From a virus: a stretch of 24,251 nt of DNA. The position numbers and the translations under genes are program-made. The notes below the pieces were generated by a model. That model was not told where the DNA came from and made no database searches. It saw only the letters and a program-made list of their open reading frames with translations. Positions 16,920 through 22,611 of this stretch are shown here, piece after piece (position 1 is the first letter of the stretch; each line of letters starts with the position of its first letter). The stretch is taken from positions 1 to 24,251 of the IMG/VR virus record IMGVR_UViG_3300025853_000634; one strand, given 5' to 3'.

Positions 16920-17111
16920 CTAATCTCTTTTTGTTTTACTTTTTAAGTACTTAATTACAGCAATAGCTCCGGCGCGATAAGCTAGCTCACGCTCGGAGAT
17001 AGTGTGTTCTGGAAAGCGGTCTGGGTATTGTTCTTCAAGCTCAGCAATGAGTCGAAGAAGATCAACTTTGCCCCCAACAACCATGGTCAGGGGCAAGGTA
17101 TCATCATCCAT
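16920..17111 (-). CDS. Small protein of unknown function after ribonucleotide reductase
   Basis: A 63-residue frame starting MDDDTLPLTMVVGGKVDLLR at an ATG (17109-17111) that overlaps the last bases of the reductase beta gene by 8. A longer in-frame start at 17201 would lie deep inside that gene and is less likely. The protein has a short strand-rich beginning and two probable helices (LLRLIAELEEQYPDRF and SERELAYRAGAIAVIKYLK) with a basic end. I recognise no domain. It is the last gene before the virion block. Confidence 0.7.
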   Translation of the reverse strand: MDDDTLPLTMVVGGKVDLLRLIAELEEQYPDRFPEHTISERELAYRAGAIAVIKYLKSKTKRD

Positions 17112-17832
17112 ATTGTGGAAGGTCAACGTTAGAAGCCTCAAAGAACGCGGGCATTCTGCTTCGCTGGGTATCCTTGAGGCCTGGTGCTTTGCCCCGCTCA
17201 TAGAGCGAGTCAGATTGATTCATCCAGAAGTCCTTATCCAGGTACTTATTCTCAGAAGAACCAAGAGAATCCATTACCCATCCAACAGTCGCTCTGCGTA
17301 GGCGATTGAGGCTTGGTGTGGACTTGAGGCCCAACTCGGAGCAGACCATCGAGTGTATGGCGACGTGCGTTTGCTCGTCTCGGCTGATGTCTGCTGCGGT
17401 GCTGCGGATTCCGATGTCTCCATTGAATCGGAAGAAGGGGAGGATGACGAAGAAGACACTGCGCTCAAGGATAGCTGCTTTCAGAATTGGATGCTCTGGT
17501 GCGTCTAGCCAAGCCTTGAGGATGTGCTTTGCTTCATCTTCATGCTTCTGGTTTGCACCGTGGGCATCAATGACATAGTTCAAAGCCTGGTCGTGGCGTT
17601 CTTCATCCAATTGATTGGACAACAACGCTTCACGCAAGCCAGGCGTGTTGGGTAGTTCGCGTTCAAGCCCTTGTTGAAGGAACTCACGCACAGGCAATTC
17701 AAGATGACGAAGCCCAAGGGCACGCTTGAGCGTGTCCTCAGACCCATCAACTATCTTGCCCTTTTGCACAGCCAAAGGCGTCCATTTACGCTTTCGGCTG
17801 ACGACTTGATCGTAAGGGGAAGTTGCGTTCAT
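17104..17832 (-). CDS. nrdB: Ribonucleotide reductase beta subunit (class I, NrdB-like, no radical Tyr)
   Basis: A 242-residue ferritin-like protein that should carry the metal cofactor starting the radical for dNTP synthesis. Visible ligands are E77xxH80 in DEERHDQALNY, E123 in ILERSVFF, and E153xxH156 in DEQTHVAIH; the first carboxylate is probably E45 or E50. It is much shorter than E. coli NrdB (376). The residue four after H80, where E. coli has the radical Tyr122, is Leu84; the nearest Tyr is Y86. The C-terminal tail ends DLPQYG, and that Tyr may play the role of Tyr356. The ATG overlaps the alpha stop (ATGA), so the subunits are translationally coupled. A TTG six codons upstream is a less likely start. 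Cyanophage enzymes of this kind were long misannotated as class II alone. Confidence 0.85.
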   Translation of the reverse strand: MNATSPYDQVVSRKRKWTPLAVQKGKIVDGSEDTLKRALGLRHLELPVREFLQQGLERELPNTPGLREALLSNQLDEERHDQALNYVIDAHGANQKHEDEAKHILKAWLDAPEHPILKAAILERSVFFVILPFFRFNGDIGIRSTAADISRDEQTHVAIHSMVCSELGLKSTPSLNRLRRATVGWVMDSLGSSENKYLDKDFWMNQSDSLYERGKAPGLKDTQRSRMPAFFEASNVDLPQYG

Positions 17833-19250
17833 TCTCCGCAGGGAATACAAATTTCGTTTTCTGGTTTGACTTTGGGACAGCCGCAGTCCGGGTCTACTTC
17901 TTCCTCTTCAAAACCAAAGAGGTCACGGAAGTCTTCGTCAAGGGCAGCAAGGGCGTCGTCCTTAGACTGAGTATCCGGTTGGACCTGGAGGCTGTAGTAG
18001 AGGCTCGTTTGGGGCGAGTACATCCACTCATAAAGGAAGTCCCGATCGTAGGTAACAACGTCGCTCCAGCTGTTGAAGCTATATCCGTGGAAGAGAAGTG
18101 TGTTCTGGTATAGACGGACTATACCATCAACCACTGCCTTGTAGTCCTTCCAGCCTACCTCAGATGCAATCTCTACATCCGGCGGGTAGTCATAAGATTG
18201 GACTCCAAAAGTCCCACTGTCCCTATCGACGTGACGACTGATAGGAGGGGCCAACTCTGGGGCAGAAGTATAGCCACGCAGATCGACGTTGTTGTAAGAG
18301 CAAGAAGCCGTGGGCGCGATAGCAAATGCTCGGTCCATGTTGTGGATGCGAGCGACTTGAGACGCAAGCTCAATGGCTTTTGCGAGTTCAGATACAATGC
18401 GATAAGCCGGAGTGTCCTCCGGTTGATGAGAATGGAATTGGGTAAGGGCGTTTCCAAACTCTTTATAAGTTACGCCGTTCTGGCAAAGGAAGTTAGCCAG
18501 ACCCAGGATACCAAGACCAACCTGACGGTCAGACTCGGGGGGAAGGTACTCCCCGGTTTCACCCACACCAGTCTTGCCGTGGAGATCCACCAGGGAAGTC
18601 ATTCCTTCCACAAATGCATCCGCAAGTTCACTAGGTTCACATGCAGCAAGGTTAATATGCTGAAGCAAACAAGTGCCACGACTACGGAGATAAACCTCAA
18701 GGCATACATTACCGTAGATACGATTACCGTAAGGATCGTGGCGGATCTTGTTGAGCCAGATGTCACCCTTCTTAATGCCTTCTAGGGTGGCGTCAATCAG
18801 CTTATCGGATGCCTTAGTAAGGAAGTCTTCATCTACATCAAGACAACGCTTAACCCAAGGTAGTTCAGCTCGTGATGCGTTAACGAACTCAAGTGCATCG
18901 TCATGCGTATAATCGAGGTGCAAAACGCAAGCGCCGTTCTTATAATGTCCACCCCGTCGAATGACCTCGTTAAGAGTAGAGTAAATCCGACCAAAGGATA
19001 CCGGACCAGAAGCAGTCAAGCCCTTGCCATTCTCATGTCCCTTGGGACGGAGCTTAGAAAGGTGGACGGCAACACCGGCACCATTCCGCAGAGCGTGGCT
19101 GACGTAGCGCCACGAAGCTTCAATTCCTTCCGGTCCCTCCATGCTGTCATCGACAACAAAGACGGTACACGAAACGGGAAGGCGTGATTCAGGATTATCA
19201 ATCCAATTTTGAACACGGCCAGTGCGTGCAATCTTTTGAGGGGTTGTCAT
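17829..19250 (-). CDS. nrdA: Ribonucleotide reductase alpha subunit
   Basis: A 473-residue catalytic subunit making deoxyribonucleotides from ribonucleotides. Key residues visible are C28 (first redox Cys, PVSC), N181-x-C183-x-E185 (Asn, thiyl-radical Cys and Glu of the active site), C194 (second redox Cys), PTASCSYNN near 313-321, a Tyr-Tyr pair Y418-Y419 in TSLYYSLQ matching E. coli Tyr730-Tyr731, and a C-terminal reductant motif CIPCGE. There is no N-terminal ATP-cone, so no dATP activity site. The C183-to-C194 spacing of 11 is that of class II enzymes, while the Tyr-Tyr pair and the adjacent beta gene argue for class I. It starts one base after the MazG-like gene stop. Confidence 0.9.
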   Translation of the reverse strand: MTTPQKIARTGRVQNWIDNPESRLPVSCTVFVVDDSMEGPEGIEASWRYVSHALRNGAGVAVHLSKLRPKGHENGKGLTASGPVSFGRIYSTLNEVIRRGGHYKNGACVLHLDYTHDDALEFVNASRAELPWVKRCLDVDEDFLTKASDKLIDATLEGIKKGDIWLNKIRHDPYGNRIYGNVCLEVYLRSRGTCLLQHINLAACEPSELADAFVEGMTSLVDLHGKTGVGETGEYLPPESDRQVGLGILGLANFLCQNGVTYKEFGNALTQFHSHQPEDTPAYRIVSELAKAIELASQVARIHNMDRAFAIAPTASCSYNNVDLRGYTSAPELAPPISRHVDRDSGTFGVQSYDYPPDVEIASEVGWKDYKAVVDGIVRLYQNTLLFHGYSFNSWSDVVTYDRDFLYEWMYSPQTSLYYSLQVQPDTQSKDDALAALDEDFRDLFGFEEEEVDPDCGCPKVKPENEICIPCGE

Positions 19251-20097: not shown

Positions 20098-20828
20098 AGG
20101 ATTGGCTCCTTAGTGGTTGAGTTGTACTCACCAGGACGGAGGATCCGAGCGAGACGTGCGTTGCGAATGGCATCGTCAAGAGTCAGGCCTGCTTTCTCGT
20201 AAGAGGCAACAACAGCCTGCCATGGATCTTCGGCTTTGGCAAGGATCTTTTCGGCACCTTTCGCACCGATACCAGGAACGCCTTTGTAGCCATCCACCGG
20301 GTCACCCGTCAGGCACTGTCGCCAGAACCAGTAGTCAGCTTCTTCAGGAGTTGTGTAAGTCAGCTCATCCCCATTAAAGAGGTTACAGCTGATCTGTTTC
20401 ATGTCCTTGTCAGGACTAATAAGAATAAAATCGCTAGGATCGAGGTGACATTCCAGACCCAATGCGTCGTCTGCTTCGAGGTTGTCATAACGGATAGTCT
20501 TGTAATGGTTATAGCACCATTCAAGAAGCCGCTTGTACCCGACAGGCTTACGTTTGGTGCGATTACCCTTGTACTCAGGGTCAACGGTTTTGCGGAAGTT
20601 CTTGCTGTCTGAGAAGAACAACAAGACACGGTCAGTGTCGAAGCGACGCTTTAGTTTATCAATCTCAGCTTGGAAGCAACGGACTACTTCCTTAAAGTTG
20701 CTGTGGATTGTAATGACATCAGCGCCCCAGTCAAGCTCTGTTTCGTTGACTTGACAAGTCCGATAGCCATAGAAGTCAGCATCAATACGAAGCTCTGGTT
20801 CAATGACAATCGGCCCAGCTGTCTCCAT
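20064..20828 (-). CDS. 5'-3' exonuclease (T7 gp6-like)
   Basis: A 254-residue exonuclease of the FEN/5'-nuclease superfamily. It removes RNA primers and degrades host DNA to supply nucleotides in T7-like phages. Motifs in order are an N-terminal RIDADFYGYR with the first Asp (D16), FFSDSKNFRKTVDPEYKGNR (about 71-90), the metal-binding LEADDALG (117-124), SPDKDMKQI (138-146), and the helix-three-turn-helix GVPGIGAKGAEKIL (183-196). T7 gp6 is 300 residues. The chosen ATG at 20828 has an AGGGGAA site 8 bases upstream and overlaps the polymerase end by 29 bases; upstream in-frame starts at 20864 and 20912 lack this support. Confidence 0.93.
   Translation of the reverse strand: METAGPIVIEPELRIDADFYGYRTCQVNETELDWGADVITIHSNFKEVVRCFQAEIDKLKRRFDTDRVLLFFSDSKNFRKTVDPEYKGNRTKRKPVGYKRLLEWCYNHYKTIRYDNLEADDALGLECHLDPSDFILISPDKDMKQISCNLFNGDELTYTTPEEADYWFWRQCLTGDPVDGYKGVPGIGAKGAEKILAKAEDPWQAVVASYEKAGLTLDDAIRNARLARILRPGEYNSTTKEPILWTPPSSTGST
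20106..20110 (-). promoter_or_regulatory. Shine-Dalgarno for membrane protein
   Basis: AGGAG on the minus strand, 8 bases before the ATG at 20097. It fixes the start of the membrane protein. Confidence 0.75.
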
Positions 20829-22611
20829 CTTTTGCTTCCCCTGCGAGCGGGACTTTGAGGTCATAGTATTCGCCCGCTTGGACGATTGACCATTCGAGCG
20901 CGAACTTGACATCTTTGGTTAGTTGTGGTTTGACAGCGAGTTGAATTTCATCGTGGATCCATCCGAGCCATTGGTAATCAACGCCCCAGATGTAGCCGTT
21001 TTGTTGGAACCAATCGTAAAGGATTACATTCCACCGCTTACAGCAGATCGCCCCAGCGCTTTGCAAGCAGTAATTAAGCGCTGCGTGTCGCTTTCCTTGG
21101 AGTTTGATTGGCCTGCCATCCAAGCCAACAATAATGTCAGACTCAGCACGACGCCCAATAGCGTCAAGGAGACCTTCGAGTCCTGGAATTGCTGCGAGAA
21201 ATTTCGCCCTAATTTTTTTGCCAAGTTTTTTCGCATCAGTTTCGTTTAACGATTTGTCTAAACTTGATCCGATTTTCTTATCGGATGCCCCATAAATAAA
21301 GGCGTAAGTTAGGGTCTTGACCTCTTTGCGAGTACAGCCAACTCGATCAGCATTCTGTTGGTGAATGTCTCCGTTGACTACAACGTCAGCGAACGCACCA
21401 CCATCAAAGTAACTGAGATAATGACCAAGCATCCGCAGCTCCAAGCCGGAAGCATCGGCAGCAACCTGACGCATACCGCTACCAGGACCAAAAAGTTGAC
21501 GACAACGAGGGTCTGAACTCGTCTGGCCAAGATTTGGTCGGGAATGGGCGTTGCGTCCGGTGTTGGTTGCAAGTTGGCAAGTATGGTGGATCCTTCCTTC
21601 GTTTGTGACCATTTTAAGCCACGCGTTTGTTCCATCGCTGAGCTGCCCGAGGGCTTTTTGTAGCTCAAGAATCCGAGCAAAGATGCTGGCTTCTTCTGTG
21701 TCGATGGATTGTAAGACTCCTTCGTCAATCTTAGGTGCTCCGGTATCTGTGAATTGATCAGGCTTCCAGTCCCTCCAATTATGGAAAGCCCAAGCGATGT
21801 GCTGGCGGCTTGTGGGGTTGAACTCCTTAATCTTACAGAATGGAGCGTTCTCGAAGTAGCCCTTGGTTTTGTTGTTACGCTTGGGGGTCATTTCCCCACC
21901 GTCTACATACGGGAAGGTTTCTCGCATGTGGTCGGCAAGCTTATCCATCTCTGTTCTGAGAGTGGATTCTAGCTTCTGTGCTTTCTCAACATCAAATGGC
22001 CAGCCAGAGGCTTCCTGCTTAGCCATGATGGCTGCTAGGTCATGCTCTAGCTTGATGGCTCCTGCGTGACGCTCCAGGCGGTTCATACCCTTATCATCCA
22101 GGCGCTCAACAAAGGTGCGACTGTAAAGAGTTTCAACCACATGGACATCCTGTTCGCAGTAGTCCTCCATTTCTTGGGACCACTCAGACCAGTCAGTGTC
22201 CTTACCAAACTCACCCTTGTAATCACCGAGGCGATAGCCCCAAGCTTCAAGGCTGTGGCGTCCATAGAGCTTACCAGGCATAGCCGTAGGGCGTCTGCGG
22301 TAGTCAATGGACAGGATGTCTGGGTAGAACATCCGACTAAGAATTAGTGTATCCAGCAGGCTACACGTTGGTTCAAAGAACGGATAGATCTCTTGCAAAG
22401 CTGGTATGTCAAAGCCAACTATGTTGTGGCCGACAAGGAGGTCTGCTTCAGCAAGCATGTTGACACCAGTAGTCACAGACTCGTGAGTACCGCTGTCGTT
22501 GTACCGAAGGACTTCTCCGGTATCGAGGTTTTTGGTGACGATGCAGTGGACACAGCTCATGCCTTTGCGAGGCAAGCCGTTCGTCTCAATGTCGAAGGCT
22601 AACCTAGTCAT
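20800..22611 (-). CDS. DNA polymerase I-type with 3'-5' exonuclease (T7 gp5-like)
   Basis: A 603-residue family A replicative polymerase. The proofreading domain shows FDIETNG (6-12), GHNIVGFDIPAL (61-72) and YCEQD (151-155). The polymerase domain has motif A VAADASGLELR (383-393, D386), motif B RKEVKTLTYAFIYG (428-441, K432 and Y436), and motif C GWIHDEIQL (550-558, D554). Y436 corresponds to E. coli Pol I Phe762 and T7 Tyr526, the residue governing dideoxynucleotide selection. T7 gp5 is 704 residues, so about 100 residues are missing; a missing or short thioredoxin-binding loop would explain this (inference). Its ATG overlaps the zinc-ribbon gene stop as ATGA. Confidence 0.96.
   Translation of the reverse strand: MTRLAFDIETNGLPRKGMSCVHCIVTKNLDTGEVLRYNDSGTHESVTTGVNMLAEADLLVGHNIVGFDIPALQEIYPFFEPTCSLLDTLILSRMFYPDILSIDYRRRPTAMPGKLYGRHSLEAWGYRLGDYKGEFGKDTDWSEWSQEMEDYCEQDVHVVETLYSRTFVERLDDKGMNRLERHAGAIKLEHDLAAIMAKQEASGWPFDVEKAQKLESTLRTEMDKLADHMRETFPYVDGGEMTPKRNNKTKGYFENAPFCKIKEFNPTSRQHIAWAFHNWRDWKPDQFTDTGAPKIDEGVLQSIDTEEASIFARILELQKALGQLSDGTNAWLKMVTNEGRIHHTCQLATNTGRNAHSRPNLGQTSSDPRCRQLFGPGSGMRQVAADASGLELRMLGHYLSYFDGGAFADVVVNGDIHQQNADRVGCTRKEVKTLTYAFIYGASDKKIGSSLDKSLNETDAKKLGKKIRAKFLAAIPGLEGLLDAIGRRAESDIIVGLDGRPIKLQGKRHAALNYCLQSAGAICCKRWNVILYDWFQQNGYIWGVDYQWLGWIHDEIQLAVKPQLTKDVKFALEWSIVQAGEYYDLKVPLAGEAKDGDSWADCH
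20837..20842 (-). promoter_or_regulatory. Shine-Dalgarno for exonuclease start
   Basis: AGGGGA on the minus strand, 8 bases before the ATG at 20828, inside the end of the polymerase gene. It supports that ATG over upstream in-frame starts. Confidence 0.7.

Follow-up and report, generated by a model that had tools for sequence, protein, structure and literature searches.

A cyanophage RNR beta subunit with leucine at the radical-tyrosine position

The 24,251 bases of DNA analyzed here (the window) are a virus record with a T7-like set of phage genes on the minus strand, including those for a primase-helicase, DNA polymerase A, an exonuclease, a MazG-like hydrolase, the alpha and beta subunits of an RNR, the portal, the capsid and internal virion proteins. 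The source is a marine cyanophage, and the order of genes from exonuclease to portal is that of Synechococcus phage Syn5. The gene for DNA polymerase A (20800-22611) contains the motif RKEVKTLTYAFIYG, with Tyr at the equivalent of E. coli position 762, a residue that has been tied to fast lytic cyanophages (PMC6370689). The subject of this report is the beta gene, whose principal features are as follows.

17104-17832, minus strand: Cyano SP / class Ø RNR beta (ferritin-like) subunit, 242 aa
17782-17784, minus strand: Trp17, candidate transfer-pathway residue
17698-17700, minus strand: Glu45, putative first metal ligand
17605-17607, minus strand: Asp76, second-sphere residue
17593-17604, minus strand: E77xxH80, putative metal-ligand motif
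17581-17583, minus strand: Leu84 (codon TTG), at the radical-tyrosine position (Y122 of E. coli)
17575-17577, minus strand: Tyr86, at +6, ruled out as a radical site common to the family
17464-17466, minus strand: Glu123, putative metal ligand
17365-17376, minus strand: E153xxH156, putative metal-ligand motif
17110-17112, minus strand: Tyr241, candidate C-terminal radical-transfer tyrosine (Y356 of E. coli)

The beta gene runs from an ATG at 17830-17832 to a stop codon at 17104-17106, and the sequence ATGA, which joins its start to the stop of alpha, gives the two genes four bases in common. This overlap, together with the Syn5-like gene order and 67% identity to Syn5 gp34, indicates that the gene is real. 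Its product matches phrog_6799 over nearly its full length (residues 5-242, E=1e-113), and relatives are found in 56 phage records. The original prediction had the coordinates right; it had remarked on the short length of 242 residues but missed that the finding, this length included (Burnim et al. 2022, PMC9531940), had already been published for the family. A small ORF (16920-17201, phrog_4970) follows, with a possible start inside beta that would give an overlap of up to 98 bases. Its true start is probably later, as the counterpart in Syn5, gp35, is a shorter ORF with an overlap of just 8 bases.

The residues that had been singled out (E77, H80, L84, Y86, E123, E153 and H156) are all where they were said to be, and to them we add E45, D76 and D152, which had been left unnamed. 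The predicted ligand set is E45, E77xxH80, E123 and E153xxH156, with D76 and D152 in the second sphere. The role of E45 is assigned by correspondence with Table 3 of PMC6370689, in which the first metal ligand is Asp in classes Ia and Ib and Glu in classes Ic and Id. An hhalign comparison aligned E123 with E. coli E205, at low probability, and also supplied the assignment of E153xxH156, in which case Asp152, just before E153, is E. coli D238 (counting Met1). To see how far these residues are kept we carried out a census of 211 distinct beta proteins, drawn from the genomes of phages, from IMG/VR and from genome contigs. W17, E45, D76, E77, H80, E123, D152 and E153 were invariant, and H156 was present in 210 of the 211, the remaining one being unread. 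Trp17 is probably the counterpart of E. coli W48, judging from its position. The chain ends in Y241-G242, and Tyr241 was found in 210 sequences, with one gap; its role is that given in PMC9531940. In an eight-sequence alignment of ordinary R2 proteins, the residues that correspond to W17 and Y241 are both invariant.

In that same alignment an invariant Tyr lies four residues beyond the His of the EXXH motif (H119 and Y123 in E. coli, Met1 counted), and L84 likewise lies four residues beyond H80. Classes Ia and Ib are characterized by a Tyr at this +4 spacing from the His of the first EXXH motif; here its place is taken by Leu84. The census confirmed the claim that Leu occupies the radical-tyrosine position: the column was Leu in 199 relatives and Phe in 12, and in none of the 211 was it Tyr. 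Nor is Leu84 an error of sequencing or assembly, since three other IMG/VR contigs encode beta proteins with a 100% match and the column is never Tyr in relatives.

Could another tyrosine, Tyr86 or one elsewhere in the core, have taken over the radical role, making the protein in effect a shifted class Ia enzyme? Tyr86 is the natural candidate, being kept in 193 of the 211 relatives and lying two residues farther along the same helix as L84. In the other 18, among them Pedosvirus S28C3, it is replaced by Phe, Leu, Met or Asn, and on the alpha tree position 86 requires at least 11 changes, as compared to three for the exchange of Leu and Phe at position 84. Y86 can therefore not be a shared radical site. 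A side chain two residues along a helix would, moreover, point some 200 degrees away from that of the +4 residue, and the class Ic R2 of C. trachomatis likewise has a +6 Tyr, if a weak profile match is followed. The remaining core tyrosines fare no better, none being invariant (Y7 is kept in 204 and Y197 in 178 of the 211); the sole Tyr that is always present, save for the one gap, is the C-terminal Y241. On the evidence of the sequences, then, no core Tyr, Y86 included, can serve as a radical site for the family as a whole, and we consider a relocated tyrosyl radical very unlikely. Y86 or another Tyr at the radical site, the outcome by which the original prediction would have been refuted, was thus not seen at the level of sequence, where no such Tyr is shared across the family, and the description of the protein as Tyr-free holds in that the site is never Tyr and Tyr86 is dispensable.

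At the level of sequence, beta can hardly be recognized as similar to known R2 proteins. Searches of NCBIfam and Pfam with beta gave no usable match (the best in Pfam had E=0.076), a single-sequence search of PDB sequences returned nothing, and hhalign of the beta profile against eight R2 proteins aligned them only weakly and locally, around the second EXXH, with a probability of 2%. The best match of the profile in the PDB, itself weak (E=0.2), was to the class Ic R2 of C. trachomatis; in it Phe127 falls opposite the column of residue 84, and the counterpart of Y86 is the Tyr two positions farther on. A search of the literature on Tyr129 and Phe127 of C. trachomatis R2 found no paper. A confident AlphaFold2 model of beta, built with 59 sequences (pLDDT 89.7, pTM 0.86), predicts an R2-like fold in which E77 through Y86 fall within one helix (residues 66-91). 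When the model was used as a query in Foldseek, it matched R2 structures of several subclasses, including the Mn/Fe NrdB of C. trachomatis (4d8f), with moderate TM scores of 0.4-0.6.

These matches raise the question of whether beta is a true class Ic (Mn/Fe) protein that is merely short. Like the C. trachomatis R2 (1syy, 4d8f), it has a (predicted) R2 fold, a Tyr site occupied by a residue that is redox-inert, a Glu for its first ligand and a +6 Tyr. Its first-sphere set, E/E/H/E/E/H, is that of classes Ic and Id, its Tyr site is Leu or Phe, and nothing in the PDB matches its profile better than the class Ic proteins of C. trachomatis, though these matches are insignificant. Phe alone, which the original prediction gave for this site in class Ic, is incomplete: PMC6370689 uses Phe, Leu or Val for the subclass. 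Against membership, the C. trachomatis protein is about 100 residues longer and has Glu in the second sphere (E119; PMC6370689, Table 3) where beta has Asp76, invariant in the 211 relatives, and a second-sphere Asp is what marks the Cyano SP pattern off from other subclasses (PMC6370689, Table 4). The Cyano SP betas also lie away from class Ic (NrdBzc) in all of the trees of PMC6370689, and the partner alpha is nearer to class II (PMC9531940), as is reflected in its NCBIfam matches, among which NrdJ leads. Given the second-sphere Asp and the separation in published trees, beta should not be filed under class Ic, and we regard that assignment as improbable.

By the features of the family, beta is instead a Cyano SP / class Ø protein: it is homologous to phrog_6799, has the E/E/H/E/E/H set with D and D, carries L84, is of about 240 aa with a Tyr near its terminus, and is immediately preceded by a class Ø alpha with a Tyr dyad. 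The features of that alpha gene, with cysteine roles taken from the text on the S-CBP4 structure (PMC9531940), are as follows.

17829-19250, minus strand: RNR catalytic alpha subunit, 473 aa, phrog_367; E=2e-203 to the alpha structure of Synechococcus phage S-CBP4 (7urg)
19167-19169, minus strand: C28, reducing pair (181 of 191 relatives, others unread or missing)
18702-18704, minus strand: Cys183, finger-loop catalytic cysteine (191 of 191)
18669-18671, minus strand: C194, reducing pair (190 of 191, the other unread or missing)
17994-17999, minus strand: Tyr418-Tyr419, radical-transfer dyad (Y418 191 of 191, Y419 190 of 191 with one unread)
17838-17885, minus strand: C-terminal cysteines CGC (456-458) and CIPC (468-471), from the sequence

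The tail of alpha is of some interest in its own right. Class Ø alphas have been described as ending in either CXC or CXXC (PMC9531940), and a double tail of the CGC+CIPC type was found in 49 of the 191 alphas, clustered in the subclade of the window. We asked whether the double tail might link the two tails already described but rejected this idea, because the tree nests it among CXXC members, apart from the CXC clade.

The alpha partner bears on a further alternative, namely that beta no longer makes a radical and is a ferritin-like protein that has degenerated or been repurposed. The protein is, after all, very short, and it lacks both the radical Tyr and the long C-terminal tail by which beta binds alpha (PMC9531940). 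Yet the ligands, W17 and Y241 are strictly kept across 211 sequences, and the conserved Tyr dyad of alpha would be pointless if there were no radical donor. An alpha relative is also present on 249 of the beta-carrying loci. We give this alternative almost no credence.

The reading that we favor, with a probability of roughly 80%, is that beta is the radical-generating subunit of a minimal cyanophage RNR with a two-metal oxidant store, working like class Ic without being class Ic itself. According to this model, beta and alpha would be made together to supply dNTPs during infection, and the site formed by E45, E77, H80, E123, E153 and H156 would hold two metal ions that react either with oxygen or with one of its reduced species. 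As in class Ic, the oxidizing equivalent would remain with the two metals, because Leu84 is not oxidizable, and would pass by way of W17/D152 to Y241 and from there to Tyr418-Tyr419 and finally Cys183 of alpha. The analysis shows the sequence, its conservation, the prediction of an R2-like fold and the alpha partner; metal binding, the identity of the metals and storage of the radical on them are what we infer. Thus, of the Tyr-free, metal-based radical store originally envisaged, the absence of Tyr is borne out by the census and the metal store is the best inference, which is also the published one. The accompanying idea that such a store might suit iron-poor seawater is unsupported here. A 2026 preprint (PMC12918982) reports that Cyano SP abundance is anti-correlated with iron but explains this by the distribution of the hosts and by metal pools inside the cell.

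Syn5 gp33/gp34 are the closest from a named phage (beta as given above, alpha 66% identity) and share the exonuclease-portal order, but the Syn5 alpha has CXXC only, unlike the alpha of the window. The P-SSP7 protein YP_214198.1, a Cyano SP beta, is 50% identical, shows the same ligand pattern including the second-sphere Asp, lacks the Tyr and is encoded directly downstream of alpha; the two betas do not differ in substance, and it is the alpha of the window that has the extra C-terminal cysteines. S-CBP4 (class Ø) is alike in alpha and has a beta of about 240 aa with a C-terminal Tyr and Phe/Leu in place of the radical Tyr, its alpha tail being CXC as compared to CXC plus CXXC in the window. 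More distantly, the freshwater Microcystis phage Mic1 has a beta (locus L086, 3001-3771) with 35% identity, and its alpha is not adjacent but about 12 kb away. Finally, we note that a class Ø-type beta with 46% identity to that of the window is encoded by the cyanobacterium Calothrix membranacea FACHB-236 (NZ_JACJPX010000124.1; locus L186, 2926-3717), on a cyanobacterial contig with cellular genes around it. It keeps all of the ligands and has Leu at 84 and Asn at 86. No alpha was found beside it or anywhere in the 8.8 Mb genome, making it an orphan beta, and a search of 292 other genomes of the order to which Calothrix belongs found no full-length beta, only one partial match (E=9e-4).

Leu at the radical site is not new, as every element of the finding had already been published for the Cyano SP / class Ø family. 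The P-SSP7 beta was recognized by Harrison et al. (2019, PMC6370689), who noted that the Cyano SP clade lacks the Tyr, set out its ligands in tables (E/E/H/E/E/H, with D and D in the second sphere) and put forward a new subclass. The name class Ø comes from Burnim et al. (2022, PMC9531940), according to whom the betas average 240 aa, hold Phe or Leu at the site, have a Tyr near the terminus and are difficult to handle. The recent preprint (PMC12918982), which also describes a marine "Ic-like" clade with Ile/Val, still calls the Cyano SP group biochemically uncharacterized. It is conceivable, at somewhat less than even odds in our judgment, that the Cyano SP betas, in which the Tyr site is redox-inert and the second-sphere Asp unique, differ from class Ic in their metal cofactor or oxidant and hence constitute a new RNR subclass, for which the names "If" (PMC6370689) and "class Ø" (PMC9531940) have been proposed.

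The window thus contributes a further clean member of the Cyano SP / class Ø family and rules out the +6 tyrosine as a radical site common to its members, leaving the picture of the family otherwise unchanged. The metal pair that would lie behind nucleotide reduction in these abundant marine cyanophages bears on the origin of oxygen-dependent RNRs.
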